Assembly: GCA_002189035.1 (NCBI GenBank)
Contig: CM007991.1
Location: 3,038,001-3,102,000, forward strand
Length of the DNA: 64,000 nt
Source of the DNA: Utricularia gibba
Lineage: Eukaryota; Streptophyta; Magnoliopsida; Lamiales; Lentibulariaceae
Reading direction: 5' to 3'
This document shows positions 13,857 through 64,000 of the stretch, one piece after another (within the stretch, counting starts at the first letter, position 1; every line of letters starts with the position of its first letter). The notes beneath the pieces were generated by a model, which searched no databases, was not told where the DNA came from, and was given only the letters and a program-made list of their open reading frames with translations. The translations under genes and the position numbers were made by a program.

Positions 13857-16406
13857 TCAGGCAACCGAAGGTTTCCTCCGGGCTGGGGAAAATGGGTAAG
13901 GGGAACATGATGATGGAGGCCGCTTCACGAACGGATGATTCAACAACTGAGAAGCAGTCGGGCGTCGACTGGGGTCGACTTGAAGGCACTGGAGAATGAA
14001 ATCCCGGGAATCACTCGAAAGAGAATCGGGGATCAGTGGCAGTTCTCCTCGCCCGATTCGGAACATTGCAGCCATCTGTGTCATATGAGGGAAGAAGAAT
14101 ACATGAAGAGGTAGCTATTCCAAGATAAAAGCTGCCCGTGTGATCGTGATAGCATGATGTTTAGGAGAAGGGGTTGCTTCCACTTACACACTCCATATTG
14201 CCGTATGGAAAGCGGCCGGTTAGCATTTCCAATACTGTGCATCCGAGACCCCAAATATCAGCTGCCAGGCCGTAGCCTTCGCACTTAACGACCTGCAGGA
14301 GTAAACAGCTTCGTCGTATCAAGTAACCAGATCAAAAGATGTGAGCTTGAGGGTAGAAGACAAGAGACACCACCTCAGGTGCCATCCAGTATGCAGTGCC
14401 CTTGCAAGACTTTACATCATTTGTCCTTGTTAGCTGCGGAACAGTCAACCCAAAAGAAAAATGTAAGCTTCACAAAGAAATCGTACAACGCTATACACAA
14501 AAAAATAAAGGAACTGAGAAACGGACCTTGGCAAGGCCAAAATCTGCAAGTTTTACTGAACCATCAGCGTGCACCAGTATATTTGCACACTTGATGTCCC
14601 TGCAAGTGAGGGATCACAGACTCCGTTAAATACAGCAAGTAAGCAAATTCTCAAGCTTTCTGGAGCACCAAGTAGGAGTGGACTCATTGGCATAGAAAAG
14701 AAAGAAACTAAGTGGGATGTATAATCACCTGTGCACGACATTTCTACAATGCAGATATTTCAGGCCATGCAGAATTTGACGCGTGTAGGTGCAAACTTGT
14801 GAATCTCGAAGAGTGTATCTTCGATAAAGGCTCAAAAGGGAGCCTTTAGTAACCAGCTCAAGAAAAATATAGAGATTTGATTCATCCTACAGAATAGGAA
14901 ACACAACACATTCAAAATTTGCAATGCTGACCACAGGAGGAAACAAACAGACATCGACTATGTGATTCATGGCGGTGGATGGTCATAGAAAAGGGGTTCC
15001 ATAAAACCATCTGAAATATATGAAACTAGTACCTTCTTTGTGCCATAATACTGGACAATGTTCTCGTGCTCAAAACGACTTAGAAGAGCAATTTCCTTGA
15101 CAGTTCACAAAGGAAAATAAACAGATAAGAAGAGGCAGATAGGGAAGGTGTGATTCCCAAAGGAATCATCTGAACAACTAGTTGAAAATGAAGTAAAAGA
15201 AATTTACCTGCTCAATTTGAAGAATTCGTTGCTTCCCTTCTTCACCATGGTCAAGAAGAGAAACTTCCTTCACGGCAAAAAAGAAACCATCACTGCATCA
15301 AGGCAAATGCAAATGTTCATTACATCAACCATGAAGCATGACTACATGCGTAATAGGTACAAAAGTAGCTGCCATCCTCAGTGTTCAGACTTACTCAGCG
15401 ATTCCTTCATAAACAGATCCAAATGATCCACGACCAAGCAGCTCACCCTTCTGCCACTCCGAAATAACTCGATTAGATCTTCCATCAGGTGAGAAATTCG
15501 GTGTTTGCTCGGTTGTTGTACTCGAAGAATCATCGTCAATGGAATTTGATGTAAAATATCCATGGCGCAAACCACTATCTTCGTTACCAAGGATCCTTTC
15601 CAGGCTACCCTCCTGTTCTCTGTCATCGATTTCTGTCACAACAGAATCCTCGTGGCCTTCTTCATTCACGCACATATAAAATCCCTTCTTGGATCTCAAA
15701 ACACTCGGGTACACTTTGCCAAGTGCTTGTAATGGAACTGGAGGTTCTAGAATTGGGGGTCGCACGCCATTAATGCCATTTCCTCGAAATTCATTGGATC
15801 TTTCAACAAGAAGACTCAAATTCTCTTCTTTTACACGAAATCTGCTATTATCAACATCTGTATATCTATCTGCATCTTCAAGATGAATATCCACATCATT
15901 ATTCCTATGGATATCAGAATTCTCATACCCCTCGTTAACATCAGAGGTGACGGACAGCTCGACAACTTCATCATCAAAAATATCATCTACTTCTCTACCC
16001 AGAGACTCTAGGGCACGAAGGAGCTTATCAGAAGAAGAAGATCGAACTTTCATATCTTCATACTCATCAGAGGCTATACACAAATCCTCTACCCAGAAAA
16101 ACCAAGTAATCTGCACAAATTCTCAACTTCACCATCCACACCATCTACACGAAAGCTTGCCTTTCCCCCACTCAACTCAAACCGGCTCAGCATATAATCT
16201 TCCGAGCAGAAGCTCGATCTCGACGAAGAAGCTGACGTGGGAACGGAGCACTCGTAATCGATGTTCTTCTTGGCGTTTCGCCGCTCGAGCCTTGGCTTCC
16301 TTTTTGAAGTTCGACTACTGGATTTAAAATCGGCGGATGAACCAGGATCCTCCTCATGCCCGCGGTGGTTTCCGCTATGTTGGAAGATTTTTGGTAGCCG
16401 ATTCAT
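13857..16406 (-). CDS. MEKK1: MEKK1-like MAP kinase kinase kinase (apparent 1-bp frame break)
   Basis: Eight exons (16406-15395, 15292-15208, 15095-15033, 14886-14729, 14599-14527, 14433-14374, 14292-14188, 14075-13857). The C-terminal kinase has [53 protein letters not shown], and the tail [10 protein letters not shown]. The N-terminal region has [20 protein letters not shown] and PPILEPPVP, the order seen in Arabidopsis MEKK1, which activates MKK1/2-MPK4 and feeds MPK3/6. Between LLGFSG and VEDLCIAS the frame shifts by one base at CCC 16092-16094. With one base restored the exons sum to 591 codons plus stop. Read literally, translation from the first ATG stops after about 105 residues; an in-frame ATG downstream ([10 protein letters not shown]) would leave the kinase intact. 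Homopolymer error is favoured over a pseudogene. Confidence 0.88.
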
Positions 16407-16723
16407 TGTTACGGAGAGCAGCGAGATTCTTAGCCACCCCTATCTCCACTCTGCTTCAAAGCTTGGCTTCTCAAAACGAGTTTTTTCAGCTGGGTTTGCT
16501 TCCTACCTGCAAAACCCCGTCCTCGAATGACTGACTTCCCATCTGGGTCAACTCATCATCACACCCCATTAAAAAGACTAATCAAACATGAGTCATAAAA
16601 CATAACCATTGAATAAAGACGATTAAAAGAGTGCCTTTTTTCGTCGTTTGCGTTAAAAAGGTGGCTTTTTAGATTCGTTTCATATTTCACGGTGCGAAAG
16701 CAACAGCCGATCGGAGGAGGAGA
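16407..16723. promoter_or_regulatory. Compact divergent promoter region
   Basis: About 317 bp separate the MEKK1-like start (-) from the adenylate kinase start (+), so both promoters and 5' UTRs share it. No clear core element was identified. Confidence 0.5.
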
Positions 16724-18470
16724 ATGGCTTTTTCTGGCTGCAGTTTTACAGCAGCCTCCTTCAACCAAAACCGGCCCGGAAGCTGCTTTCCTCCACATGA
16801 TTCCCTCACGGAATCAATATGCTTGTCCAGGCAGTCGAGTTTATCATCTCTGTCTTTTCGTGCTAATCGAAATTACTCGAGAACGCAGTTCAAGAAATCG
16901 TCACCTAATCATCTGGTAAAATGCGTTTAATTTCTTTGATTTTCCGAAAGAAAAATTCATTCCAAAGAGGCCTATGCTTTTGTCAATCGGCAGGTGGTTA
17001 TCTCCGCAAAAAAGCCTGAGCCTTTGAAAGTAATGATAGCAGGAGCCCCTGCTTCTGGTAAAGGAACTCAATGCGAGCTTATTACCAAGAAGGTAAACCT
17101 TTCCCCTGGTTGCCCACTTCATTTCAGTAGTCTTTGTTTTCCTGCTTCAACAGTTTTATTTTTGGTCGAAGGGATTTCCCTTGCAAACACCAATGTTTCA
17201 GATTCTTCATCCTTTATTTTTTTTCAAATACCTCGAAAAATCTTCCTTGCAGTATGATCTGGTTCACGTAGCCACAGGAGATCTTCTCAGAGCAGAAGTT
17301 GCCGCTGGAACAGGAAATGGGAAGTTAGCAAAAGAGTATATGGAAAAGGGGCAGCTTGTGCCGAATGAGATAGTTGTCATGGTACCTTAAATATCTTTAA
17401 TGACTGCCTCCCCTCTAGATGCTAGAATCATTTGGGCCAGCAACCATGAAATATGTGGAAGGATCCCATTTTAAAGCTGGGATTACATTTATTATCCCAT
17501 GAATAGGTCAAGACATATACTTGTAAATCTGATGAAATTAGTACTGCCTCGAGTTTTACCTCAAAGCCATCTCATTTATTCACATTTACCTCACGTCCCT
17601 CTTTTAGATGGTCAAGGATCGCTTGTCTCAGCTGGATGCTCGAGAAAAAGGCTGGCTTCTGGATGGATTTCCAAGGAGTGAATCCCAAGCTATTGCTCTC
17701 AAGAATTTTGGTTTTAATCCAGATATCTTCATTCTTCTCGATGTGAGTCTTTCTGTTGCTCTTGATGCACTATCTCCGATAATCTTCGACTGTTTCCTTG
17801 CACTACCCTGCCTTCTCTTGGACATAAGAACCTTCTTTTTTTTTTCACTTTTTAAAGTACTCTTCATGCTGAAATAATATTCTCAGACAAGTTTAAGTTC
17901 TTTGAAGTGTCTGAGTCTTGCTAGAGTAGTCATGCATAAAATTTAGTTTGTGTACAGGTTCCTGAGGAGATTCTTGTTGAGAGAGTTGTTGGCCGGAGAC
18001 TAGATCCTCTTACAGGGAAAATATACCATCTTACATACTCCCCTCCTGAAACCGAGGAAATTGCTGCAAGACTTACTCAGCGGTTTGATGACACTGAAGA
18101 TAAGGCATGCATGCCGCCCTTTCAAGCATGAACCATTGCAGAGGCCAAGTTTATTTAATGATGACAATGATTCATGAGTTCTTTGCTTTCAGGTTAAACT
18201 TCGCCTGCAAACTCATAACAACAACGTGAAGGCCGTGGTGTCGTTGTACGAAGATATAATGGTTGAAGTATGTCAAAGTCACCAGCTCCAGCTCCTTACC
18301 ATCTGATTTTATGAGTATAACTGCAGTTTACATGACTTCTATGATCTGTATATCTCCTGCAGGTGGATGGAACCCTCCCCAAACTGGAGGTTTTTTCGAA
18401 GATCGATGCAGTTCTATCGGCTTTACACGAAGAAAAGTCGCTTGCTTTACAATCGCAGCAGGCTGAATAA
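16724..18470 (+). CDS. AMK2: Plastid adenylate kinase, AMK2-like
   Basis: Seven exons (16724-16915, 16994-17092, 17253-17381, 17608-17742, 17958-18104, 18193-18267, 18363-18470) encode 294 residues. Adenylate kinase interconverts ATP plus AMP with two ADP. Seen: P-loop GAPASGKGTQ, ATGDLLRAEVAAGTG, the LVPNEIVVMMVKDRL block, DGFPRSESQA, LID segment GRRLDPLTGKIYHL and RLTQRFDDTEDKVKLRL. The N-terminal 60 residues are rich in S, R and N and poor in acidic residues, as in a chloroplast transit peptide, and the whole resembles Arabidopsis AMK2. The intron after exon 5 starts with GC instead of GT (AAG/gcatgc); no GT donor nearby keeps DKVKL in frame. The first ATG after the transcript start was used. 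Confidence 0.92.
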
Positions 18471-18925
18471 TGCACCCAACTGTGGATCTGGACAAGGGAA
18501 CAATGCTACATGTACTGCAATTCAAAGTTGGGAATGCATTGTCACTGTAAAGATTGATGTTGGATAGCAGTTGTAATGCGTTTAAGTACCAGAGTTCTGC
18601 TGTGGACGTTCTTGCAGTCTCTGCTGTTGTAAGAAGAGGGCCAAGTTTGAATGGGCCGACATATGGGCACTTGACAATTCATTGACAGGCCCAGGATTGG
18701 ATTTGCGGCCCAATAACAAGAGTTCAATTCACCCGAAGAATCACAACGCATAGCGCGAGTCACATTCCGCCACGTGTTCTTTGAGCCAGATGTTCGGCGT
18801 CCATTGGCCAGGTGCCTCGTTCTATTCTGTTCCGACTTGCAACAAATTCTTCGTCATCATTTCTAAACACACGGAAAAAAGGTTGAAAAGCCTTCATCGG
18901 CAACGGGATCGTTGCGCGCCAGAAA
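18471..18925. promoter_or_regulatory. HSP70-17-like promoter with three site II motifs and a G-box core
   Basis: Contains the adenylate kinase 3' UTR and the promoter of the next gene. ATGGGCC at 18651, GGCCCA at 18688 and GGCCCAAT at 18707 are site II type elements, and CCACGTGT at about 18770 has a CACGTG core. CCACG-containing boxes can mediate ER-stress induction by bZIP28/bZIP60, which would suit an ER chaperone, but the complete CCAAT-N9-CCACG element was not found. Confidence 0.4.
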
Positions 18926-21900
18926 ATGGAGAGTACTGCCGCGCTACGGTGCACATTGCTCTTCCTCTCCTTCTTTCTGTTGAATTCTATACAGTGCCAG
19001 TCGGTGGCGGTGGCGGTCATAGATCTTGGCTCCGAATGGATGAAAGTCGCCGTGGTCAACCCTAAACCTGGACAGGCGCCGATATCGATCGCGATCAATG
19101 AGATGTCGAAGCGCAAGACCCCGACGCTTATCAGTTTTCATTCTGGTATTCGATTGATCGGCGAGGAGTCACTGAACCTGCTCGCACGTTACCCCACTAA
19201 GGTTTACTCGCAACTTCCGGCCCTACTTTCGAAACCTTACGGTTACACACGCGATTTTTTCCAAAAGTTCTACTTAAGTTACGAGATCGCACCCGATGAA
19301 ACGCGGGATGTGGCAGTGTTCCAGGATATAAGCCTGGAAATTCGCAATCTCACGGCGGAGGAGATGGTGGGGATGATACTCAAGTATGCCGTTGGTCTGG
19401 CGGAGACTCATTCAAAAACAAATATTAGAGATGTGGTCATTACCGTGCCTCCATTCACTGGGGTGGCGGAGAGACGGGCAATGCTGACTGCAGCGAATTT
19501 GGCTGGATTGAATGTTTTATCTCTAGTTAATGAGCATAGCGGCGCTGCTTTGCAGTACAGCATTGACAAAGATTTCTCCAATGGATCTCGGAATGTAGTC
19601 TTTTACGACATGGGGGCGAGCAGTACTTATGCCGCATTGGTATATTTTTCTGCTTACAACGCCAAGGAAGGTGGGAAGAGTGTGTCCATTAACCAATTCC
19701 AGGTATTTCACTAACAAAGTGTATGATGGTACCTTGTTCTACTTCGGTTGCAATAAAGGATGGTTAATATACCTGGAAGTTGTTCTAGGTGAAGGATGTC
19801 AGGTGGGATGCAGAACTTGGAGGACAACACATGGAATTGAGGTTGGTTAACTATTTTGCCGAAGAGTTCAATAGGCAGCTTGGGAATGGGATCGATATCC
19901 GGGATTCTTCCAAGGCTATGGCAAAGCTGAAAAAGCAAGTTAAGCGCACAAAAGAAATCTTGAGTGCCAACATGGCAGCTCCGATTTCTGTAGAATCACT
20001 ATATGATGATCTTGACTTCAGGTTAGCAGATACACTTTTTTTCTTTCCCTTACTCATTGTGGTATCTTTAGGTTCAGGGCGTTAATCATTTATCATGGGT
20101 TGAATTGTTTTCATCTATCTTGGATGCATCCCATCTCTCCAGGAGCACTATCACCCGTGAAAAGTTCGAAGAGCTTTGTCAAGATATTTTTGAAAAGGCT
20201 CTTGTTCCTCTTAAAGAACTTCTCAAGAATTCTGGCTTGACTGTTGATGACTTGTATGCAGTTGAATTGATCGGTGGTGCCACTCGAGTCCCAAAGTTGC
20301 AGGTCTTTATTTTTCTCCTTTTGATTCTATTTGGAACATTTTTAATCATATTCAAATCATTGCTGTAGTCATATTAAATACTAGAATCACTGTGTTAAAT
20401 TTATACTTCTGTGAACTTCATTCAGATATTAATCTTCGTGTTCACTGAACTGCTAAAAATTTTCTCTCGTAAGTTGTTCTTTTAGTGATCTTCATTGTTG
20501 AGCTGCTTATTCACTGAACAATATACCTACGTTTTTAAAAATTTATACTTTTTGAACTTGATTTCCATAGAATTGGCTCCAGAAGAGTTAACCTTTTTTC
20601 GCATGCCATCCCCTTTTACAGGCTAAGATACAGGAATTCCTGGGTAGGAAGGAATTAGATAAACATCTGGATGCTGATGAAGCCACCGTCTTAGGCGCCT
20701 CAATACATGCTGCCAATTTGAGTGATGGAATCAGATTAAATCGTAAGCTAGGAATGATTGATGGCTCTTGCTATAGTTTTGTCTTTGAAGTGGATGGTGA
20801 TGGTCTTTCGAAGGATGAAAATACTCGGCAGCTGGTTGTGCCTAGAATGAAAAAGATTCCAAGCAAGGTAGATGACATCAGTGTCTTACAACGTGTTTAT
20901 GTTCTATCAATCTGATGAATGGGTGATTAAATTGTACTGCAGATGTTTCGATCAGTCACTCACAACAAGGACTTCGAAGTTTCACTGGCATATGAAGCAG
21001 AAATGCCCCTGGTTCCTCTAACGCCTTTGCGAAATATGAGATCATAGGTCTTAGTGATGCAAGTACAAAGTATGAATTTACGTGTACTACATTCCCTTCC
21101 TATCGTATATATTTGTCAAGCAGCATTGCTTAATTTTTTTAAGTTCCCAAATCCAGGTACTCATCACGGAATCTTTCATCGCCGATCAAGGCTAACTTAC
21201 ACTTCTCTCTCAGCAAAAGTGGTGTGTTTTCATTGGATAGAGCGGAGGCTGTCATTGAGATAACTGAATGGGTGGATGTTCCACGTAAGAATTTGACAGT
21301 AGACAACTCAACATCTGCTTCTCCAAATACCACAACTGGAGCTGGGAATGTTAATGAGAAAAATGACAGTCTAGAAGCAGGCAGTGAAATCAATAACACG
21401 ACAGGCCTTGGAGATCATGATACTACCACCACGACGCTTGATACTGAAAAGAAGCTGAAAAAACGGACTTTTAAGGTCCCCCTCAAGGTATTGGGGATTA
21501 ATTTGAAGATTGAACTTTAGGATTTTTAAATTCTGATAATATTTCGACTTCATTTCATAATGCCTTTTTAGGTCACTGAGAAGACAGCAGGGCCTGGAAT
21601 GCCCCTATCAAAAGAATCTCTTGCTGAGGGTATACTTAAAATATCTTTATTAGACAAAAAGGATGCAGAAAGGAGGAGAACAGCTGAGTTGAAAAATAAT
21701 TTGGAGGGGTACATATATTCTACGAAAGACAAAGTAAGATGGAGGATGATAACCCCCACCCACCCCCAGCAATCCTTTCTATGTATTCATAATTTTGTTT
21801 CTTCATCCTTTCAGCTTGAGTCTGGTGAGCTCAGTAAAGTATCGGTGGAAAAGGAACGCCAGTCTTTTATTGAAAAACTTAATGAGGTTTTTTTTTTTTT

Positions 21901-24028: not shown

Positions 24029-27000
24029 CTACCCACATTTTTCTCCTTCAGGCAAATCAATAGCAGTAGCAGGCAGAGAGCGGTGAACAAAAAATAGCAA
24101 CAGTTTCTTTTGCTTCTCATCAGCGTGAGGGATACTATCTTGGAGAAGCTCCACCGGCATCTCCCTGCTGATGGATCTTGCAGCAGCCTCTGAAGCAACT
24201 ATTTGTGGGTCTCGAGTAATCGATGATTGCATAATGCTATCATATTTTCTCACACAGTACTTTGTCAGAAAGTTGAAGAAGGCATCAAAGGAAGCCCGCC
24301 AAAGGACAGGATTTGGCTGGCTGTGGGTTCTGGCAGACAGAGGATTCTCTGTTACCTGCGCAGCTCTTACTAATACAGACTTCAGAACAACTGAGGCACC
24401 ATCTCCAGCAGGGCTACCTAGAGGGCGAAGAGGTGGTTGCTCAGTTGAACAAACCACTGCAGCCAGACAAGCACTTACCGCATTAAGATCCATTCCAGCA
24501 ACACATGCAGAAACTGCTCTGGAAAGCCCATGAATAGTATTAGCATCTTCAGGTTCTGATGGAAGGCTCCCGAACAGGAACCTTAAATGGCGAAATATAG
24601 CCATGCAAACAATCCGAGCAAGCTCACTACCAGGTAAAAGAAGATAAATAAACCTTGTAAGGAGTTTCCGTCCCTTGGAAATGGAAACTATTCTCAGAAA
24701 CACATTATCATACTCTGGAGAAAGCCCATTATTGTTACCAGTTTTGCCAAGGGGATCAGCCAGCTGAAGTGAAGCAGCTAATCCTTCTAAAAGAAGATGG
24801 CGTTTCCATCTAAGCTGGACTCCACCATCTGCAGGTTGTGTAAACTGTAAAAGACGATCAATGTCATCCACGTACAATAGCAGACAAAGACCATACTCTA
24901 TCAGGACCCTCACAGCAAACAATGGTTCCCGTTCCAAGGGCCTTTCAGTACTTTTCTGTTCAGAACTACTCTCCCCAAAAGAAACAGGAGTTTCAACTTC
25001 AAGAAGAGATTGAAGCTGACGTAGCAAAGAGTTGCCGATCCTCCCAAAACCATCAACCTGGAGATGTGCTTGAGATTCAGCACTCTTGCGGGAGCGTGAA
25101 GATTTTTCCTTTAAGTGGGAGGGACAGAATCGAAATTTTGACCTTGATTCAATGGACCTTTTTGCTAGACAAGCTTGGTGGTAGTAGTCATCTGCATAGG
25201 GATCATTTCCATGGGTTGCAGTCTGCTGAATCTTAAGAATGTTCTCTATCTCTTCCGAAGTCATGTACTTTGATCTGAATTCCGGAGAATCACTATCATT
25301 CCTGTGACAGCTAACATCAGAGAAATGATTGGTGAGCCTCAAGGAACTCTTGCCCTTCTGCGAAGACCTAGTTTTGGACTCTCTCCTAGTTGAAAATATA
25401 TCCTTGCAGCTGTGAGAATGTGAAGGCACAGTATTATATACTTGAGAAGACAAAGCAGGAAACTGGGATATAGACAACTGGGATGAATGGTGTAGTCTCT
25501 TCTGCTGTGTTGATACTACATGGGAAGGTAATAGCCAGTTTTGATGCTGACCACTTAGGATGGTGCCAGATGAAACTGAATTATCCCTATGAAGATGTGA
25601 AGGTTGGCCATTCCAGCGACTGTGCAGTTGACTGTTGCTGGAGAGTATAGGAGATGTAAGATAAGATGAGTTAATACTATTAGGAAGCATACGAGGCAAA
25701 CCATATGGATGCAGAAGTGGAGAATTATTCTGCTGAGTGAATGAAGAATGAGATCCACTGGAGTGAGGGAAAGTTTAAGTAGATGCGAACTGTTTAGAGA
25801 AATTTGATGAGATCCTGGTGGAGGGGAAGAAGGGTGAGATGTCGTTGGGCCTAATATAGGCTCACTAGAAAAGTCGTGCAGCTGTTGATGCTGCACTGGA
25901 TGCGATGAAGCTCTGCACAAAGGTTTTGATTCAGAAGGGTAAGGATCAGTGGAAAAGCATGGTAGCTCCTGATGTTCCAGATGAACAGGGTGCGAAGATG
26001 CTCTATACAATGGTTTAGACTCTGACAGAGATAACGAAGAGTAATGGAGCTGGGGCGACCATATCTTATTTTCTTCAGAGAGTTCAGAGTCAGAAAAATG
26101 ATGGTCAAACCAATCAGAAAAATCTGCTTCTCCCGTCCATTCGGTAGCAGAAGAACCTGAAGCAACTCTAGTACATCAGCAGTAGAAAGTAGTATCCCAA
26201 AAGCAGTTAACAGTCATACAGATAAATTATAAAAAAATTTTAAGCATGGATGACAAAAAACTCCAAGATGAACCAAAACAGTGTGCTCAAGTCTTACAAC
26301 TCACTTTCGCATGAGAAAGAACTAGATGCTCGCTGACCAATAATTCCAGGATGCCTAGGTTCAGAAACATGCTTTTTTATCTGCAAAATGCACAATATTT
26401 GAGGAAGATGGCGCGAGTGTAGGGACTATTTCACAAACTGATTAAGAATGAAATAAAAGCAAATTATGCTGCATCACCATAAGGAACCCCAGGAAGACAT
26501 GAAATGGTTTTTATGAAGATTTTCAGCAGATGAACGACCGATGCAGTTTTTGAGACAAATAATGGCAATAAAGTATACTAAAGCGAAGCACCTTAGCAAA
26601 AGTAGTTGTCATATCATCTACATCAGATAATGATCCCAATGCCATTCCCTGTAAGAACAAAATGAGTGTATATAAATGCTATAATTCCTCCTAAAAAAAT
26701 GAGTGATGGAATGTAACATTACTTTTATGAACACATAGAATATACAGATATTAACATGCACATATTCGTCAATTGACCTCGTATTTGTCAAGTAAATGAT
26801 ACTCGTTCAGTTCTTGATCCGCGCCACATTTTTCAGTACAGCCCGCTTTTTCATCTTCCAGGCTTCCAAATTTCTCATCATCAAGGATCTCCTTCCCAAA
26901 AAAGGCGTGATGTGACGCGTCAAACATCTCTCTATCTGAATACAGTATTAAAATGAACACAGCTTAACAGCTACAACAACTCCAAAAATGCAACACGCTT

Positions 27001-31283: not shown

Positions 31284-32874
31284 TCATCCATTCTCCCAGC
31301 TCCGGTCAGTCAGAGTCGTTCTGGTTAGAAGCTGCAGAGGAATCGGGAAAGGAATCACTCCGGTCAGGGGACTTTCCCCCTTCGGAGGCTCATCGTCGCC
31401 GCTGCCTGTTGAAGCCTTGTTCAAGTCCGATGTGTCAGCAGCTTCAGGAGGTTCGGAGGAGGGGGTAGTGGAGGGTTCACGTCCCTGCCATGGATACAAT
31501 TTACAGCATTGCTTTAAGACATCGGGAGGGTGATCAACATGGGGGAGATGAAGGAGCTTACAGGCCCTGAGGAAAGACCAGGCGATGCAACAGGAACTGA
31601 AGATGGCTGCCGCATCCTCCCTACTGGGTGGTCATACCTGCAGTTTGATCCATATTTACAGGTCCCATGGGAGATGAAGTATCGACATTCTTGTTTGTCC
31701 GGTCGTTGAGGAAGATCATTTGAGGATATGTTTCCATCAGAAGCTTGCGCAGTAACGATGTGAGAAGCAGGGGAAGGCCAGAGATTTCCCTGTTGATCGA
31801 TCACGAGTTTGTATATTACTCAAGTATAATGATCAGACTGCAACTAATGAAAGAGCATTTTGATGGAGCATACCATATACAGGCCCCATTCTTGGGATGG
31901 ATAGATAAAGGCAGAGGGGTAACTGTGCCACTGATGAAGGGAAGTACAAGTTAAGGGTACAGGGAAGAGAATGGGAGCTGAAAGGGGCTGAGGGTGATGG
32001 AATTTGCAAGCATATCCATATCGACACACGCCCGTCTGCATATAAAAAGGACAGGGCTTTGCATCCTGAAAAGAAACCACCAGAAGTTGTTGCATATCAA
32101 ACACCATTTGGGATCAATTTAAGAAATGGGGTGGATAGACAAGCCAGACTGAAGCAAAGAACCTGACGCATTGGTAAGCCCAAAGTGTTCATCCATACAC
32201 CAGGCTGCTTGTCCTTGGGGTGATTAAATTTACAACCAGCTCCATATTTGCACGTACCAGTCTTCAAATAATACTTCAATACAACAGAAAACAATCAAGG
32301 GAGGAAGTTCAGGTTGTAAGCTTCGGAAGAAACCTGGACAGCATTAACCAAAGTTACAATAAATTACATCACAGTCTGGTTCTCCAGCTCTTTCTGGGAA
32401 CTCAAGAGTGTAGGCAATGCCATGATCCTGTAACCCATCAAGCAAACAAAAAGAAAAAACAATAAAAAAATACATCCTGCAAACTCTAAAAAGCGCAACA
32501 AATTGAGTTATCGCTGTTTACATATACTGTGCCAGATGGATGATTGAAACGACAATTCTTTCCATAAGCACAAGTTCCCGTTCTCAAAAAGTATCTGCAA
32601 TCGGATTCCCTGGGCGTCCCGGATACATACCCGACACATATGTAAATTGACTTCCGTCAACGGTGTCGTTGGTACTCGATCGTCCCATTGCTCCTGCAAA
32701 TTCCGTCGAGAAGTTAACTATGATCCATCGGAAAACAGAAGGAACAGACACGAAGACAAACAACGGGTCCCTCTGAAGAAAACACACGGCAACAAAAATT
32801 GCAAATCCCATTAAACAAAAGGGGAATGATAGTTCCTCACCCCCAACTCCTCCTGGAGTCTGACTATCATCCAT
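31284..32874 (-). CDS. ZFN-type CCCH zinc-finger protein with four fingers (apparent 1-bp frame break)
   Basis: Seven exons (32874-32841, 32693-32528, 32427-32368, 32273-32163, 32065-31874, 31789-31562, 31484-31284), about 330 residues. Four C-x8-C-x5-C-x3-H fingers are visible: [60 protein letters not shown] and [20 protein letters not shown]. Plant ZFN proteins bind RNA or single-stranded DNA and typically have five fingers; here the fourth of the usual five seems absent. The stretch [17 protein letters not shown] corresponds to the linker seen after finger three. Just before finger one the frame breaks at CCC 32608-32610 (MYPGRPG / ESDCRYF); one base restores the family sequence RPGxxDC and an exon sum divisible by three. 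The C-terminal exon is low complexity. Confidence 0.87.
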
Positions 32875-34109: not shown

Positions 34110-36604
34110 TTACTGCTGCCGGAGATTCGGTGCCCCAGGAGTTGTTTTTAAGCATCTGCGGTTGAGCTTCAACATGTGATTGTAGATGCTGGGAGAAGCA
34201 GAGAGTTGTATGGGGTGGTGTAAGAAGAGATACACAGAGACATGGGAAGCAGAGAGGGTAAGTGTGGAAGTACCTCAGGCGGTGTCTATTGCAGGCTGTG
34301 AAGAAATCTACCACGCCATTCAGAATACTTCGCAGAGCTCGAAATACCTGAGAAATGGGTGAGTCTTGTTGAAGGACTAGCCGCAGGGGAATCATGAGTT
34401 ATGAGTTGTGTACCTGGGAGAAAAGATCATTCCAAAGAGAACGCAAAACCGAAACCTCATACGATACAACAGCTGACTCAACTTCTCTAGTGAAATTGAA
34501 GAAGCTGCTCAAAAACTGCCACAGATCTCTGACCAGCCAATACATAAACGTGCAAAGGGATACCACGAGGTTGAAAATTTTCTGGACCAGACGAAATGGA
34601 GCATGCAGAATTTCTTTGAGAATCCAAAATATAGGGCAGAGAAAAGATGTTGCTGCAATGAGAAACATATTGAAAAGGTAAGTACCATCCACATTTGAGA
34701 ACCTGGATTCAAAACTATGGATTTGAAACCAACCTGCCAGTTTTCCCAAATTCCACACTAACACCAAAGTATACCAAAGTGGGAGCAGCAAGATCTCTAT
34801 AAGCTCTCCAACTATGGAAAAAGAAGACTCGATAACCATCCATGTTATTGAAAAGAAACTCCCTGATATTTGCCAAAAAAAATTCCAGACTGGAGAGAAG
34901 AATTCCAATAGCTCTATGACAGGTAGCACCATGGGCTTTCCAACATATAAAACAACAGACTGTACACTCCGGGTCACTGTAAGGAGACATTTAATGGCCT
35001 TCTGAGAGTTATGCAGAAACAACATAGTTCCTAAATACTTAATTCTTGATATCATTTCTATTGCTTCAATCCAGTCAAAGAAAGGCCCAAATAACCTGGA
35101 TGCAGTAGCCTTAAGAAGAGGAACATTTTTGTACAGATCATAAAATCCAATGAGAACAGTAGCAACTGATATAAGCACATAGAGAATTCTTGCAAGAGGG
35201 CACATCCATGGACGATAAACACGGGAAAATACAGGGTACGATTGAAGGAAAATAACCCAAGATGGAAGTCCAGCTTCAAGCAGGGTGAGTAATCTTAGAT
35301 CAGCCATGATTATGTCCCTAAGTTTAAATGGAAGATCATGATCATTAAACCGAAACAGTATCAAAATATCCTTGTATACAGTTGGCTCATTTGTTTCTTC
35401 ACTATCACTTGGATCATGGGCCTCATGGAACGTCCGCACAGTATCAGAATCCTCTTCTGTAGAAAATCCAGGTTCAACATATGAGCGAATTGACTTCATA
35501 ATTTTCCTTCTTTTGTTCGAACCACATGCAGGAGGATGACTTAGTTGTCTGTGACTCATCGTTTCCGAGGATGATGGATAGCTGCAGAAACTACTACTCA
35601 GTGAGTCAGGTGATGAATCTCTAGCATTTATCCCATTCATAACACTTTCTTGTCTTCCTGGGAAGCGTTCCTCAGCATCATAGAAAATCTCCCCTGTGAT
35701 AAACACTAAGTTGTTAATAATGACCGAGCTAAGGCTCCAACAGAAATTGAGATGGAGATGTAACACGGACAAGAAATGGACAAAGTAACCTACAAATATA
35801 TAATAAAGCTGAGACTGATTGAAGTACCAATGCAATCGTTCAAATGACGTCCCAAGAGAGTCTGTTCATCGGATGTTCCTGGGAACCATGACAACATTGA
35901 ACCCATAGCGTGTGCAATGCTGTCGAATTCCCACCTTCTCATGACCTTAGTTTCAATGGCAAGATAGGTATCGGTCTGTGGAGTGCATAGTGCCAACAGA
36001 AAGAAATAAAGTCAGGAGAAGGGATTCAAAAGTGCAAGGTTTAACTGATTTCCTTGACGGAAATCACCTGGAGCTCATTCAGATAATTCATGCCACGTAC
36101 ATGTCCCATGCAACCTCAAACACAATAAATCCAAACAACGTTCTGTGCAACTTGCTGTTCGCGATCAACGAATTTCTAAGCTCCTTTACAGGTAGCATTG
36201 CCCTCTTCCTGGATATTTTCATAGCATCAATTAAAGTGAACCACCTTTTAAAGTTGCTAAATTTGCTGAAGTTCGATGATGCAGAAGCCTGCGACTCTGC
36301 CAATTCAGCCATCATCATCTTTTTTGTCTTCCTCCCTCGTGTGTTCGCGAAGGGAGATGATCTGGACTGTACCATTTTTCAGATTTAGTGTTTCCGGATT
36401 ACCATGCTGTAGCCAGAAACTATAGAAAATCACATAACAGGGAGATGTTGTAACCTTCGTGACCATGAGCTGCCACAAATGTGTAGGCCGTGATGCAAGA
36501 TCTTCTAACCATGGCCGATTGTCCACCAAGAAATACACTTTTCCACTTTCAACCGCCGTAAATAGGTACAGATGTGAGAGATACGATTGCAAATCCTGTG
36601 CCAT
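34110..36604 (-). CDS. Plant-specific multi-pass membrane protein, unknown function (apparent 1-bp frame break)
   Basis: Six exons (36604-36455, 36366-36068, 35975-35828, 35693-34414, 34347-34274, 34188-34110), about 676 residues. I recognise it as a conserved plant protein without an assigned role. The N-terminal 170 residues are soluble-looking (MAQDLQSYLSHLYLFTAVES, WLEDLASRPTHLWQLMVTK), followed by a serine-rich stretch, RRKIMKSIRSYVEPGFS, and then the conserved core MADLRLLTLLEAGLPSWVIF with about six to eight hydrophobic segments (ILYVLISVATVLIGFYDL, LPLWYTLVLVWNL, NMFLIAATSFLCPIFWIL). The frame breaks at CCC 36105-36107 between FIVFEVAW and HVRGMNYLNELQ; one base restores it and makes the exon sum divisible by three. 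The final exon is read as SIYNHMLKLNRR... to fit the phase. Confidence 0.82.
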
Positions 36605-42300: not shown

Positions 42301-42703
42301 CCGGCCTCTCCCTCTTCCTCGGCATCTCCATTCCCCAGTTCTTCGACGAGTACTGGAGCCTCCCTCGTCGTGGGCTTGTTCACTCCAATGCAGGATGGGT
42401 AAGCACCAGCACCAGCACCAGCACCAGCCCCTTCCCTTTCAGTGTTTTCTAACTCACAGTCCCATTGTTCCTGTTGGATGATGGTTTCAGTTCAATGCCT
42501 TTCTGAACACGATCTTCATGTCGGCGCCGGTGGTGGGGCTGATCGTGGCGGTGGTGCTGGACAACACCCTGGAGGTGGACAAGTCGAACAAGGACAGGGG
42601 AATGGCGTGGTGGATCAAGTTCAGAACCTTCAGGGGAGACAACAGGAACGAGGAGTTCTACACGCTCCCCTTCAACCTCAACAGATTCTTCCCGCCCACT
42701 TAG
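39333..42703 (+). CDS. Nucleobase-ascorbate transporter (NAT/NCS2 family)
   Basis: Fourteen exons (39333-39408, 40195-40292, 40373-40546, 40658-40758, 40844-40919, 41002-41061, 41144-41331, 41403-41499, 41583-41669, 41757-41815, 41907-41998, 42066-42143, 42238-42398, 42491-42703) encode 519 residues, the usual plant NAT length. It begins MADIAHPPMDQLQDLEYCI. About twelve to fourteen membrane segments are evident. The NAT signature ENVGLLGLTR fits the pattern [QEP]-N-x-G-x4-T-[RKG], and QH-region equivalents (AFQNYILVLGTSVMIP) are present. Characterised members carry uric acid, xanthine or other nucleobases with protons; plant substrates vary and cannot be assigned. It ends NEEFYTLPFNLNRFFPPT, as in the NAT1-7 group. 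Exon 7-8 splicing (CCATG/gtctgt to aag/GTTCATG) was set to keep PWFMFPYPLQWG. Confidence 0.93.
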
Positions 42704-48522: not shown

Positions 48523-49212
48523 TTAGCTTCTGGGGTCGTCGTTGTGCTCTCCTTCCCCAAGCTTGAAATCGATGCCCGTCATTGATCTCTCTTGACAGAG
48601 CATTTCTTTCTCCAGGTGTTGGCAGTAGTTTTCGAAAACTCGGGAGCTCACATATACCTCGAAATCCAACAGAAACAGAAGCTCTAACTCCAGTCTGTTG
48701 ATCTCTGCGTTGCTCAATCCTCCCACTCGGGCGTAGAACGCATTATTGTAGTGCCTGAAAATGATGAATTCCCACAGCTCAAATATAGTTTTTCGTTTAA
48801 ACCAACAGCAGCCAGAGTAGGAGAAGCCGACTAACTCACACATCGTCTAGAATCTTGGAGGCGACCATGACACTGGTAACCAGTAATCTATGAACATTGA
48901 CCGATAGAACCAGAGAATCCGGATATTTATGCACCAATCGATCAATATACACGAATCCCACAATGAAACACGCGGGGCTGCAGCTCGTGTACTTGTAGAT
49001 CCTCTGAACATAATTCTCCAGACTGATCGCCGGCGCCCTGCTTCCATGAAACGCGATGAGGCTCCTGCCGGAGGCTGCTTCCCCAAACAGTCGTTTCTAG
49101 CGACAAGCTTCTCGAGCACACTGGAGAGGATCCAAAGTGCCCTTGGTGGGGGTGAAGGCTTTTCAGGGACCGGCTCCGGGCTGCAGTGCTCTTCGCTGCC
49201 GGTGGCGAGCAT
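48523..49212 (-). CDS. CYCU1-1: U-type (P-type) cyclin, CYCU1;1-like (apparent 1-bp frame break)
   Basis: Two exons (49212-48840, 48754-48523), about 201 residues. U/P-type cyclins are small plant cyclins related to yeast PHO80 that pair with CDKA and respond to phosphate, sugar or brassinosteroid status. Seen: ALWILSSVLEKLVARND, HGSRAPAISLENYVQRIYKY, CSPACFIVGFVYIDRLVHKY, NVHRLLVTSVMVASKILDD and YNNAFYARVGGLSNAEINRL. The frame breaks between LVARNDCLG and the AFHGSRAP block; the best site is CCCC 49081-49084 (one base missing). Restoring one base makes the exon sum divisible by three and gives the continuous cyclin box. A G-quadruplex-capable (GGGAT)n repeat lies about 70 bp upstream. Confidence 0.9.
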
Positions 49213-49733: not shown

Positions 49734-50305
49734 CTAGAAGGAAATGCTAGCTGGGCCTGGAGTGACCGGGACTTCTCCGGTGGAAGGAGCAAATTGTGGC
49801 GGCAGCGCTGCAGGTGGTGGCGGAGAAAACAGTGTAGGGGGCAGCGGAGGGATAGTCAATTCAGGAGGCAGCTGAGGAGGTGTCGAATCAGGAAGACTTG
49901 GAGGAGGAGAGAACCATGTGGGAGGCGGCGGCAGCGGCTCAAGGGGAGGATCTGGGGCGGAAAACCAGTTACCGTGGTTGGCGGGGGTGGCGGCGGTGGC
50001 GGAGGAGGATATAAATCCGGCAAAATGGGGGCATTACTGTTGCTTGTCTGCGGAGGTGGTGAAGCCCTAGGATGACCGGAATTGATGGGACGAGACCCAG
50101 AAGAGGGAATACCGGTATTTGGGTTAGGGAGAGCCCTTGGCGTCTGCTCAGCGCAAGAACTCGAAGAGCATTGCGAGATTCTTCCGGCATTGTTGTCGCG
50201 GCGCTGATGTAGCGCGATCCCAAGCACGAGGCCGATGATGATGAGGAGTATTACCACGGCCACGAAGATCTTGGTCGCCTTCCCCACATAACACTTTAGT
50301 TCCAT
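49734..50305 (-). CDS. Single-pass membrane-anchored proline-rich protein (apparent 1-bp frame break)
   Basis: A single exon of about 190 residues. A short basic N-terminus (MELKCYVGKATK) is followed by one membrane segment (IFVAVVILLIIIGLVLGIAL) and then a long proline-rich region. I do not recognise a family. The first frame runs through a polyproline stretch into unlikely low-proline sequence and stops; the next frame continues proline-rich (PLEPLPPPPTWFSPPPSLPD ... STGEVPVTPGPASISF). The switch fits one missing base in GGGGG 49983-49987, giving an open frame to 49734. The topology suggests a type II or III anchored extracellular or cytosolic proline-rich domain, perhaps wall- or SH3/WW-interacting, but this is a guess. 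Confidence 0.55.
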
Positions 50306-56932: not shown

Positions 56933-57557
56933 CTACAATACATGGCTGCTCTTAGTGTTTCTTCTTCCTTTCTGTGCATCCACTTTCAGCAGAACTCGAT
57001 ACTGGAATCTGTTCTTCTCCGCCAAAAGGGAAAACAAATCACCAATTTGCGACAGTGCTAACACGAGTTCATCGACACGCAAACAGTAGATGCATGGAGC
57101 TAAACAGAAAAAAAAAGGATTGCATGCATTTGTCTGGTATTTAAGCTGAAAATTCCAATCGTCAAAGGGATTCACCTCCAGCTCCTGAAGAAGAAGACCA
57201 TGGATACTCGTCTCCCTGAAGATTTGAAATAGCAAGAAGACGGCCTCGATATTCTGGATGTACACAAGTTGAGCATCCAAGAGTCCCTGAACACGACGAA
57301 CCAAGCCCTAAACCAGCAAATTAACACCCTTCGCTGCGTGAATTTGCCCTAGGAAATGGAAATCCTCTCGTTGTATCACTTCCTCCCCAAGCACTCACCG
57401 GTAATCTGTTGATCGCCGGCTCATCAGTGATAGAATGCCTGTGGAAAATCCCAGCGCGATAAAATGTGAGAATTGGAAGCGGATGAACTAGATCCAGAGT
57501 GTTTTCAACAGAGACGAACGCGGAGCCGTCTTCAGTTTGAGAATCGGAGACATTCAT
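56933..57557 (-). CDS. Small conserved-looking protein, not recognised
   Basis: Three exons (57557-57399, 57307-57176, 57057-56933), about 138 residues. I do not recognise the family. It starts MNVSDSQTEDGSAFVSVENT, continues as two hydrophobic helices (GLVRRVQGLLDAQLVYIQNI, EAVFLLFQIFRETSIHGLLL) and ends in a basic tail. The helices look amphipathic, as in small coiled-coil complex subunits. Exon 2 to 3 only joins in frame if one base is missing near the exon 2 donor (57176, where GAG/gtgaat would be GAGG/gtgaat), consistent with other G/C-run losses in the window; then the exon sum is divisible by three. GGCCCAAC at 57686 is a site II promoter element about 130 bp upstream. Confidence 0.5.
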
Positions 57558-58887
57558 GAAACACACCAAAGCTCAAATCCAATCACCCCTCTTCTCGTCG
57601 AGCAGCGGCGACAGCCCGCCGCTCCATTTGGGGGTTCACCTGATCCCCGAACTTACATGGGCTTCCTTAATGGGCTAGTGAGAATGGCCCAACACGAGCA
57701 CCAAGAGGTCGCCCCGTGTCTGGGCGTAGGTCAATGCAGTTTAAACCATGGGGATTGCGGAGACATATATACCGCTAGTGATTATGAATAAATTAGGAAT
57801 GATTTGGTTGTATTATTGGGGATTATTAGTTGTTAATTACCGAGTGGGAGAAGTCCGCGGTGCACCCTACAAAATCCACCGAATCTGGTTGTTCACGAGG
57901 GGCCGAGGAGGAAGGCGCTCATCTTTCGCATCCGATTTCAATGCCTTCGATACTTTTCCAACGACCGTTTACCTGTCGAGAGGCTACCAAAGTCTAAGTT
58001 TTTTCCCTCAGTTGGGATTCCTGGCGCTTGCCCTCTTGTCCGTATCGGCGGAGTTGGTCATTACCCTCCAGATCACAAAATCGATTTCTCCGTGCTGAAT
58101 GATCAGCCTGGCTTGCGAGGGGTGAGATCTCTTGATGCTCTGACGTTGACCTGTTTCTGCGTTTTTTTGTTTCCGAGTATGCTGTTTTGTGGGTTGATGC
58201 ACACGCTGGTTTTCGAGGATTAGGGTGTTGCTGTTTTGCCTTTATCTCTTCTTTTTGTTGCTTTTGGTTGTTGAGTTGCCTGATCTCGCGAATTGGGACA
58301 AGATCATCGGTTGATGCAACATAGTTGCTGGGAATTCTTCTTTAAAAGTTGGAAATTTTCATCGTGTTTGAAAAGGACTCCTTTTTTATTCCTTTTCATG
58401 AGCCTATGAGCTTTCTTATTTCTTACAGTATTTGACTTTCGCAAATGGCCAAAGTTCGATCTTTGATTATTAAAATGATTTTTAACCTTTGTCCCAGATA
58501 AAGGCTTCCGTCTCTATGCTGGATCTCTTTCAGCGACCTTGCTCTAAGCCGTAATCGGGATCGGATTCTTTTCTTTGCAGAACCTTTTATTTCAGTCTGG
58601 CAGATAGAGCAACTTATAAAGTTGCTCACACCTGGAGGCAGGTGTGGGGCTGTAACGCTATAGATCTATTCTTTTGTCAGTTCTTGAAATCGGGATCATC
58701 CTATATTTGGAGAGTTCAGCGGATTTCAGAAGGTTTCCCAGTAGACTATGGCTAAAATTTGCCTGACTTGAAAGTATGAGAGCAGCCAGATAGCTCTTAC
58801 TTTGTTTTTATTTTGCAGCAAATGCTTTTTGAAGAGAAAGCTATTATCTTCATTATCATTATCTAATTTGAATCATCTGAGAATTCC
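57558..58887. promoter_or_regulatory. Divergent intergenic region, site II motif, probable 5' UTR intron
   Basis: 1.3 kb between the small minus-strand gene and the LRR gene. GGCCCAAC at 57686 belongs to the minus-strand promoter. T-rich 58130-58880 before the LRR start resembles a long 5' UTR intron. No coding gene supported. Confidence 0.4.
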
Positions 58888-61208
58888 ATGAAGATGTTCA
58901 GATTTTCCTGCTTCCCAGCTCACATTCCTTCTCACAGACACAAGGTTAGTGGTCAATTCCTTACGTAATGTAATTCCCTCGCTAATCAGTATATCCTGAT
59001 TTTTTTTTCCTCAACCGTTCAGAAAACTGTTCAGATATCTGGGAAGGCATGAGGAAGGCACTGGAAGATTCATCACAAAACAAAATTATCAGTGAAGTCC
59101 CTGGATTAGAAGCAGAGAGTGTTTCATGTTTCAACAAGGAGGGAGTTACACCCAATAAGAGTCCTGAATCGATGACGAATTACCCTCCTCGGGAGCTGGA
59201 GTGCAACTCTGATGATTTGGATAGTGATTGTGATAGAATGGCACTAAGGAATGCAACAATTAGGAAGAGCATATCTCTGGGAAGTGTCCTCAACTGGGAA
59301 AAAGGATGTGTTGTAGCTGAGGATGAGCTTCAGCAAGGATTTTCTAATGATACACCAGCTGATCAAAGCGGGTTGCTGTTGCAGATGGTATTAATTTTCA
59401 TGCGCCAATAGTATCAGATAAATATCATGAGCAAGGGCCATCCGACTCTCTTCTTGTTGGTTCTGATTTTACAAAGAACATGTCGCTCTTCTCAATTGGA
59501 GGCTCACAACTGATAGAGAAAGAAGATGCTGATAAAGATGGTATAGGTTCATCCTTTGTAATCAATTGCTGCAGCCCAGAACCCCAGCCCCGAGCTGTGA
59601 TTACTAGATCCAGCTCTTTACCCAAGATGCATTCCCCGTGTCAGTCACCTGTCTTTTTTCTTCCCCACTCCAGATCTGCAGAAGATCTAAATGGTTCCGA
59701 TTCAAGGAAGACATCTATAAGACATGAATTTGGAAGGCAAATAGAGTTTGAAGAAAACGAACAGCTTCATGCTGATGATCCTGAGGAGAACTATAACTTC
59801 GTAGATTCTGCAAAACACTGGATAGTACCTGAGCATGATTTGACCAATACAGAGGTAGCCATCATGCAGGACTCCTGTTCTTTTCAACCATGGAATGAAT
59901 CACCAACAAGGGATTTCAAGTTAAAACGAATTGCAAAATGGGTGACCAACCTTCAACACACTGGACCACTTGATGAAACTGTGGAGCCTGCGCCATCTAG
60001 TGACCATCAGGAATTATCAAAGTTCGATACTTTGTTTGAAAAACCAGTTGCTGCAAAGCTTGATGTTGTTGTCACGCCTGGAGCTGAAGTAGCAAAACGT
60101 TACATATCTTCTCTCAACCCCTCTTCAACCACCGCGCAGCTCTCCAACCTTGGTTTGGTAGTGATACCCTTTTTAAGTGCTTTTGTCAGCCTCAAGGCAC
60201 TAAATTTGTCCGGAAATGCAATAGGTGTGCGGGTATCCTAAAGCAAGCATTTTTGTCTTTTTCTTATTACCTTTAGGCGTTCCTTCATCCATGAATATAT
60301 TCTGTGTATTTTCCCAGTGAGGATTGCGGCCGGGGCCCTTCCCCGAGGACTTCACATTCTGAATCTCTCGAAGAACAGTATCTCCACCATAGAAGGGCTT
60401 CGTGATCTCACACGGCTTCGTGTTCTGGACCTGAGCTATAACCGAATCCTAAGAATTGGACATGGTATGCATCCTCCTTTTCCCAGCACCTGTCTGTGCT
60501 GAGTTGTTTTGATCATATATCTAACTTGTCCTGTGTTTGGAAGGTCTGGCTGGGTGTTCCTCCCTCAAGGAGCTCTACCTAGCTGGTAATAAGATCAGTG
60601 AGGTTGAAGGGCTTCACCGCCTTTTGAAGCTGAATGTTCTGGATCTTCGTTTCAACAAAATCTCGACGACAAAAAGCCTCGATCAGCTGGCCGCCAACTA
60701 CAACTGTCTGCATGCAGTAAGCTTGGAGGGAAACCCTGCACAGAAAAACATAGGTGATGAGCAGTTGAAGAAGCACATGGTGTCCCTCCTCCCCAACCTC
60801 ACATACTACAACAGACAATCCGTCAAGGTCGGAACGATGAAGGACGGCACTGATCGATCCGCGAGGCTGGGAATCAGCTCCCACCAGATGGACCGCGGTT
60901 CCAGAGTGGAGGTTAAGAACATGCGAAAAGGAACTGCTGGCCGGAGAGTGGTGCCTGCAAAAGCAGGGGGGAGCAAGCAAGTGAGACCACATCCTACAGT
61001 GATGAGAACTCCGCAGCAGCGCCCCTCTCTGTTTTCAAGGCGGATTTCTCTGTTCCACGAAGCAGAAGCGAAGGAAACCTTGGAGCTCTTTGATCAAAAA
61101 CATGCAGTCTTGTATCAGTTCCTCTGTGGTTCGTATGTTCTGTTTTCACACAGCTTTTCTTTTTTTATTAGAGTCTTGGATATTTATATTAGAATTTTAT
61201 TTTTTTAA
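58888..61208 (+). CDS. SDS22-type leucine-rich repeat protein (two apparent 1-bp frame breaks)
   Basis: Four exons (58888-58944, 59023-60224, 60318-60464, 60544-61208), about 690 residues. It starts MKMFRFSCFPAHIPSHRHK, has a long disordered N-terminal half, then SDS22-like LRRs (LVVIPFLSAFVSLKALNLSG, GLHILNLSKNSISTIEGLRD, LRVLDLSYNRILRIGH, SLKELYLAGNKISEVEGLHR, LNVLDLRFNKIS) and a basic C-terminus. It resembles plant proteins labelled outer arm dynein light chain 1-like (At1g78230); plants lack axonemal dynein, so the name is only structural. Frames break at GGG 59041-59043 (before MRKALED) and at GGG 59370-59372 (DQSG / VAVADGINFHAP). Restoring one base at each makes the exon sum divisible by three. 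The last ~30 residues run into low-complexity sequence and may not be the true end. Confidence 0.8.
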
Positions 61209-61274
61209 AAGAAAAAAATTCCGGAAATTTTTGTATCGCCCCCTCCGCCCGAGTTTCCATGTTCTGTCTTCGAA

Positions 61275-62971
61275 ATGGAGGCGGGAATGATATCGGTGGA
61301 CAGATGGGGCTCCGGCAGCCAGGCCTACTTTCTGACGCATCTGCACGCGGATCATACTGTTGGCCTTTCTGCTGGCTGGAATCGAGGAGAGTTGTTTTGT
61401 TCCCGAATCACTGCAAAGCTTTTTCCCTGCAAATTCCCGGGTTTCGATCTCTCCCTCCTCCGTGTCGTTGAAATCGGGACCTGGTACGGGATTTCATTGA
61501 TATCACCTTCGTCCGGCTGCTCAACTACGGTGCGCTTCAAGGCTATTGATGCCCACCATTGCCCTGGTAAGCAAGTAATTTGTTGAACAGTGTTTTGGTC
61601 ATTCCTCCAGCTGTTTGATGTAACTCCTCAACAGTATTTTCATTTGTTTAGCTGTTGCTTTTGTGATTACACATGTTTATTCTACAGTTCCTGATGTCAT
61701 TCTGCGTTAAGACCCTGCTCTTCTTTGTCAGGTTCCGTTATGTACTTGTTTCGCGGTGAGTTTGGATGCATGCTGTTCACTGGGGACTTCCGCTGGGAAA
61801 CATTTGATGATGCGGCAAAAACTGGAAAGGCTTCGTTGCTTGATTCGCTCGGGGATGACAAACTCGATGTCTTGTACATAGATAATACTTACTGCAATCC
61901 CAGATACTCCTTCCCCTCCCGTGATGTGGCTGCCAAGCAAGTAAACTCTCTATTTACCGGGATATCTTTTTCATGCGGAGTTCCTTTCTCATTCTCTTTT
62001 CCTTGCTACATGAAGATGTTTGGACTAAACCATGATTTGATAACCCACTGCAGGTTGTTGATATCATTAGTTCTCATCCACAGCACGATGTGATTATTGC
62101 AATCGACTCATTGGGTAAAGAAGATCTGCTGCTCTACATATCCCAAACACTGAGCATCAAGGTACAGTTCACTTGATGACCCACATGGCTCTGTGATTGA
62201 GATAGGAGCGTTGGTTGGATTTTAAATTTAGATTTCATTATTTTATTCCCTTGCATCTTGCGTTTTTATATTGGTGCTGGATGTGATGTGAACTGTCCCT
62301 TTACAGATCTGCGTGTGGCCAGAAAGACTCCAAATCATGCATCTTCTGGGATTTTTTAAGAACTTCACTACGCAGACCTCTGTTACAAGAGTTCGAGCCG
62401 TTCCTCGTTATAGTTTCAGCATCGACACTCTTGAAGGACTGAACGCCCACCATCCAACCATTGGAATTATGCCATCAGGTCTTGCATTGGCAACAAAAGA
62501 AATGAATGAAAATGGAGTTGTTTTTGGCTCCTCTCCCTCTACATCTCGTCCAAACAAAAGAGCTACATCTGGTACCAAACATACTCCTATCCTCTCCAAG
62601 GAGCCTGATTCTGGTGGTGATCCTCCCATGAATGTCAGAAGATACCATGAACACATCTACGTAGTTCCATATTCAAATCACAGTTGCTTTTCAGAGATAC
62701 AAGAGTTCATTCAGCTTCTCCGGCCTATCAAGATCAGAGGGATAGTATCCTCTTCCTCATGCTACATAGATCCCAGTTACCACTTGGGACATTTGCTCCG
62801 GGGTACTCAAGACTCCCCCAACACCAACAAACAAAGACAGGAAACGGGTGTCCCGAGAAGTCAGCTCCAGTAGGAAGGAAAAGAAAGATACTTGATTTCT
62901 TGGGTGTTCGCGCAAGTCGAGTAAGCTTGCTCAGGAGATTGAGCCATGGTGCCAGACTCACAGGTACTTGA
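61275..62971 (+). CDS. SNM1/Apollo-like metallo-beta-lactamase nuclease (apparent 1-bp frame break)
   Basis: Four exons (61275-61566, 61732-61940, 62054-62161, 62307-62971), about 424 residues. The metallo-beta-lactamase motif HLHADH is at about 22-27, with DAHHCPGSVMYLFRG (motif 2), LFTGDFRW (motif 3) and YVVPYSNHSCFSEI (motif 4, beta-CASP). beta-CASP members such as Apollo/SNM1B are 5'-3' nucleases for crosslink repair and telomere ends; it matches Arabidopsis At1g27410. After SSSSCYIDPSYHLGHLLRGT the frame stops early, while the conserved end KRKILDFLGVRASRVSLLRR is one frame away. One missing base in CCCCC 62815-62819 (or GGGG 62800-62803) explains it; restoring it makes the exon sum divisible by three. 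Its ATG is only 66 bp after the LRR stop. Confidence 0.88.
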
Positions 62972-63856
62972 CATACTTCCGTCTTCTGGCATTAGCACAC
63001 ACAGCCCCTGCCCACGTGTACACCATCTAGACTACCACTGTTTTTTTAACTATTAAGACTTCAAAGCAACACACCAGAATGGGCAGTCCTATCCTACAAC
63101 CTTTAAATGTTGTCGTCACACCATCAAAGTCTGTGATAATGTTTCTCCATGCCCATCAATGATGAGATGGGGTAGGACAGCACATTCATATTAAAATTTA
63201 AGGCCACCATGCACATTCAGGTAAAAAGATTAATATGAAATTGATCCTTTTTTTCACCCACAAATATCATGACATGATTATTTTTCTAAATGGTCTTGTG
63301 TTTTCTTTTCCATGGTGTTTGTCTATATGTTGATATGTTGGGTCAACTTACAAAAATAACTGTGGGCAAAAATCGTTTATAGAATGGTCCATCCTTTTCT
63401 TTTTTTAATATGCCAATAATGATGTTTTGAATGTTCTGCATATGGTTTCTTTGACTATAAAGTTTGTTTCTATGGATGAAACACCAGTAATAGTTTGTTG
63501 CTATTTGGATGGTGATAATAAAATGCATGTCAGTAAAAAAAATTGTTCAATTTAGAATTATATTTTATTGAAATTTTTCAATTTTATGTTAGATTTATAT
63601 TTATAGCAACTTAAAATTAAATACAAATATTTAGATACAATATAAAAAGAGTAGGATGGTGGTTAACTGATTTGTGGGTGGGGGTATTTTTGTAAATTGC
63701 AACTACAGAGTGTGTATTTGTGTACCTACTGGTGATCTTCAATCCGAATCGGTGTAGGCAGTCAGTCTCGTCGTGGACCCTCCCCCACCCCCTGCACTTG
63801 CAGTGGTCGGTTTTCTCTTCATTCTTCTTCACTCCACTCCGGGATCTTCATTCACA
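62972..63856. other. AT-rich intergenic region before the BAHD gene
   Basis: Contains 3' UTR of the nuclease gene and the promoter of the next gene. No coding frame or clear element. Confidence 0.5.
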
Positions 63857-64000
63857 ATGGCGACGCTGCTGGAAGAGTTTCAGGTGGCGCCGCCGCCGGG
63901 CACCGCCGAAGAGGTACGCCTGCCCCTAACCTTGTTTGATCTGCCCTGGGTCCCTTTCACCCCATCCGGCGTCTTCTCTTCTACGAGATAAGCCCTTGTT
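63857..64000 (+). CDS. BAHD acyltransferase, 5' end only (cut by window edge; apparent 1-bp frame break)
   Basis: Only about the first 48 codons are present. It starts MATLLEEFQVAPPPGTAEEV and continues RLPLTLFDLPWVPF, then HPIRRLLFYE in the next frame. That matches the N-terminus of plant BAHD acyltransferases of the anthocyanin/flavonoid malonyl or coumaroyl type (LPLTFFDxxW ... RxFFY), which transfer acyl groups from acyl-CoA to phenolics. The frame switches at CCC 63952-63954 (or TTT 63955-63957), one base missing. Catalytic motifs HxxxD and DFGWG lie outside the window, so activity and substrate cannot be judged. Confidence 0.7.

Follow-up and report, generated by a model that had tools for sequence, protein, structure and literature searches.

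The window analysed here, a stretch of 64 kb (C3:3038001-3102000) from a 100.09-Mb flowering-plant assembly of 516 contigs, carries a set of flowering-plant genes, namely those for a MAPKKK, an HSP70-family chaperone, a CCCH zinc-finger protein, a P/U-type cyclin, an SNM1-type protein with a DRMBL domain and a BAHD acyltransferase. The reading frames of such genes are interrupted by single bases at eleven places, and this raises the question of whether the plant has lost these genes or whether the assembly has miswritten them. The initial annotation had reported the eleven interruptions as deletions of one base at runs of C or G, with 57175-57176 as a possible further one, and we found all eleven runs at the coordinates that it gave. 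Six-frame translation and a frame-interval test, which measures the stretch where the frames before and after a break are both open, bore out its reading of the direction: the downstream frame equals the upstream frame minus one in 11 of 11 cases, and no break is an insertion. The evidence set out below points very strongly to consensus errors of a long-read assembly in G/C runs, and the eleven broken genes are most likely intact in reality.

At five of the eleven sites a relative aligns straight through the break. The first is a coding-strand GGG in the MAPKKK (MEKK-like) gene on the minus strand (16092..16094), where an intact MAPKKK paralogue from the same genome (L093, on C2) is gap-free across the codon. 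The CCCC in the HSP70-family (HYOU1/HSP70-17-like) gene on the plus strand (21006..21009) is spanned by an alignment to a PDB HSP70, and the Pfam HSP70 pieces of this gene fall in two frames. In the cyclin gene (minus strand, coding-strand GGGG at 49081..49084), which has a Pfam Cyclin match, an alignment to the PHO80 cyclin spans the break. A GGG on the plus strand at 59370..59372 lies in an LRR protein gene, of which an intact same-genome paralogue on C255 reads in one open frame and is gapless at the codon. Finally, at the CCC near the N-terminus of the BAHD acyltransferase gene (plus strand, 63952..63954), which extends beyond the window, residues 1-43 of the malonyltransferase 2xr7 align across without a gap.

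The remaining six sites are supported by the both-open interval (25 to 220 nt) together with motifs. The tightest is a coding-strand GGG on the minus strand (36105..36107), the sole run of at least three within a 25-nt interval; a genome search found no paralogue of its gene. A second GGG in the LRR protein gene (plus strand, 59041..59043), close to the start of exon 2, is the single G/C run within a 64-nt interval. The coding-strand GGG at 32608..32610 (minus strand) stands directly ahead of the CCCH zinc finger, which begins just past the break, and here the PDB alignment stops short of crossing. The CCCCC at 62815..62819 (plus strand) lies past the DRMBL domain of the SNM1-type gene, in a 220-nt interval, and the PDB match is limited to the part upstream of the break. 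Placement is poorest at two minus-strand sites. One is the coding-strand CCC at 25767..25769 (uncertainty 217 nt), in a gene that has no Pfam match and is named PAT1-like from our reading of its sequence; the other, the weakest of all, is the coding-strand CCCCC at 49983..49987, where the 175-nt interval covers proline-rich low complexity in the gene for a proline-rich membrane-anchored protein. G/C runs make up 42% of the runs of at least three in the surveyed coding sequence, and the chance of all eleven breaks falling in G/C is about 7e-5. Picking a G/C run within a both-open interval involves some circularity; less of it enters the genome-wide survey described below, which is anchored on conserved codons. 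A codon-usage segmentation of the window had little power, labelling 13 kb beyond position 16000 as coding, and picked up the breaks at 16092 and 59370 only. We did not accept the further switches that it placed at 42456, 53989 and 54351; the last resembles an intron acceptor, and the first is a -1 switch on the minus strand beside a CCC run, without homology support.

Five unrelated families (KCS, GRAS, BAHD, UDPGT and HSP70) were searched through the genome for junctions at which one gene's match resumes in another frame without space for an intron. This yielded 31 non-intron junctions, 29 with a shift of -1 and two with a net loss of 2 nt (L056, which comprises two separate -1 losses, and L077), while none showed a gain of one nucleotide. 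Two further breaks (L014, L050) came from a frameshift-aware alignment. All 32 deletions that were placed at a conserved codon lie in G or C; some of these placements are our reading of family motifs, those in BAHD genes were made from 200-bp pieces, the C241 and C304 copies of HSP70 were counted as one, and L016 was omitted because its loss could lie in either a C or an A run. The breaks are scattered over many contigs regardless of gene function, and most of the broken genes show no further lesion (hardly any have stops) and no net gains. The exceptions L021, L078 and L082, which have other damage or incomplete matches, may be true pseudogenes. The rate of false breaks amounts to about 0.2 per kb of conserved coding sequence, or one every 4-5 kb, and this is a lower bound, breaks being visible only within family domains. 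In the same survey KCS (fatty acid elongase) genes were seen clustered in tandem at C413:4945840-4999061; part of them have stops or are incomplete, and the cluster is likely a mixture of working and decayed copies.

It is conceivable that part of the breaks are introns or exon boundaries that have been mis-read, and such mistakes do occur: KCS introns initially appeared as false shifts, and four genome-wide candidates with 61-94 extra nucleotides were taken as introns and excluded. However, the remaining junctions abut or overlap in the profile and leave no intron space, and the both-open intervals in the window are mostly 25-220 nt. The break at 59041 is close to an acceptor, yet by our own reading the sequence on either side of the run fits the family. 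We therefore consider it extremely improbable that mis-read gene structure accounts for part of the breaks.

The frequency of breaks in the placed sample rises steeply with run length. Among the G/C runs in 55.6 kb of coding sequence from GRAS and KCS genes, those of original length 3, 4, 5 and 6 were broken in 0.1, 1, 12.5 and 20% of cases, and both of the two runs of original length 7 were broken. Across the five families the corresponding values are about 0.2% (3), 2% (4), 6-8% (5), 14-18% (6) and 6 of 6 (7), where the denominators were scaled to a survey length that we estimated by hand at 130-166 kb. Some deletions sit in runs of only 2 or 3. No clear loss in an A/T run was found among the placed deletions, despite A/T runs of at least three outnumbering G/C runs (1469 versus 1059) in the GRAS and KCS coding sequence. 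Over 329 kb surveyed, G/C runs are scarce at length 7 (5 versus 54 of length 6), whereas A/T runs are not (194 versus 380). The CCC, GGGG and CCCC runs of U6 are intact in two full copies and in the 3' part of a third, which are too few to be informative; two U6-like copies (L064 at C98:252137 and L065 at C98:258923) stand about 6.8 kb apart in identical inverted 3.1-kb stretches, which represent a recent inverted duplication or an assembly palindrome. In the window about 8-13% of the coding G/C runs of 4 bases are broken, against about 2% genome-wide, though the coding length of the window is roughly known and the window was picked as odd-looking. Shallow read coverage in this region of C3 is a possible cause of the local excess. 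Thus, the single direction, the single context and the steep genome-wide rise with run length uphold the proposal of the initial annotation that under-calling of homopolymers is the simplest cause, and they widen it: the whole assembly is affected, the effect is G/C-specific in the large contigs, and the window is denser in breaks than the average.

These patterns also bear on the possibility that the deletions are real and that mutation of a kind which shortens G runs, such as oxidative damage, has turned the genes into pseudogenes. Run contraction is a genuine mutational mode. Oxidised guanine gives mainly G-to-T changes, which would leave stops, and a process driven by reactive oxygen species (ROS) would not leave everything but run length untouched. 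For Utricularia itself a ROS-based mutation hypothesis has been put forward, to judge from a title cited in PMC4358910. Nevertheless, pseudogenes should carry mixed lesions, and almost no premature stops, insertions or changes in A/T runs were seen; that all six of the runs originally 7 bases long are broken is a saturation unlike mutation. Moreover, this reading would require the joint loss of HSP70s, three DELLA-type genes, the cyclin, SNM1, the MAPKKK and others. In the DELLA-type GRAS genes L057 (C375:1927315-1928414), L058 (C142:1758954-1760056) and L059 (C2:1407335-1408407) the frame is broken each time within a few codons of one shared GGPP segment; the C runs concerned have 5, 6 and 4 bases, respectively. 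An independent triple loss at one spot is implausible, whereas a common run-prone stretch is not, and a naive annotation would call DELLA loss from these three loci. Taken together, we regard pseudogenisation as a very unlikely source of the breaks.

Loci that were assembled twice offer a further view of these runs. Loci of the large contigs are repeated on small contigs with a substitution difference of 0.2-0.4% (C316 versus C412; C241 versus C304), and the assembly therefore contains haplotigs. One GRAS locus, present on both C316 (38 kb) and C412, differs between them by one substitution and 10 indels over 4,128 bp, with C316 the shorter in 10 of 10; the following 6 kb show 11 substitutions and 4 indels. 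At one of the differences, CCC versus CCCC, the reading frames part, with 412 open codons in one copy and 615 in the copy that has CCCC; a second, CCCC versus CCCCC, lies outside that open frame, and several of the indels are in A/T context. As substitutions differ too, the two contigs are probably two haplotypes, and both of these run-length differences could be allelic. HSP70 is broken at the same point on both C241 and C304, as a real mutation would give, although a systematic error would be expected to give it equally. With 16 substitutions and only 2 indels over 4 kb, these are allelic copies and uninformative on the direction of error.

Another way to reconcile real deletions with working genes would be programmed frameshifting or correction at the RNA level, which would render the genomic losses harmless, and the conserved protein sequence does resume past each break. 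However, the sites have no slippery motif in common beyond the run itself, their contexts differ, and the remaining run lengths range from 2 to 6. The run-length difference between C316 and C412 outside the open frame speaks against such a scheme, and same-genome paralogues read in plain frames. We find recoding of this kind scarcely credible. A broader form, in which a real and ongoing contraction of G/C runs across the genome is tolerated with many genes kept functional through some correction, is likewise highly improbable. Losses in one direction, in G/C and across the genome, in otherwise intact housekeeping genes fit under-calling rather than independent pseudogenes or recoding.

We therefore return to consensus error as the preferred reading. 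If the long-read assembly writes some G or C runs one base short, the frame breaks would be errors of the consensus, the true DNA would have longer runs, and the breaks would be an artefact of a known kind and not a real feature of the genome. The assembly is very probably the one produced for Utricularia gibba from PacBio data with HGAP and Quiver; a review describes a PacBio assembly of this species made with HGAP at 88x, with a contig N50 of 3.4 Mb, and notes that HGAP polishes with Quiver (PMC5793159). The cause would accordingly lie in PacBio long-read data polished with Quiver and given too little short-read correction. The sizes of C1, C2, C505 and C507 (8,500,000, 6,192,500, 3,452,500 and 642,500, respectively) are exact multiples of 500, which may reflect a consensus that was processed in chunks. 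With errors of this kind many gene models in the assembly would be split or truncated. Gene breakage seen here is better taken as a warning than as biology, and claims of gene loss, of pseudogenes or of missing DELLA genes that are made from this assembly need checking against reads or transcripts.

Among known systems, unitary pseudogenes resemble these loci in having frame-breaking deletions within recognisable genes. They are unlike them in that here no stops or insertions lie alongside, one direction and one context prevail, and many constrained genes are hit together. Against consensus error stands the restriction to G/C runs: homopolymers of all four bases are over-represented in raw PacBio reads (PMC7671305), which gives no account of it, and A/T runs are the commoner context in the data of PMC12007338, whereas in the large contigs here a clear effect is confined to G/C runs. 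In other respects the likeness is close. Quiver is known to be weak at long homopolymers (PMC4853030), the errors that fragment genes in one long-read assembly are mainly false deletions, with runs of 4-5 as their most frequent site (PMC12007338), and the consensus errors of PacBio assemblies polished with Quiver are likewise gene-breaking indels of one base within homopolymers.
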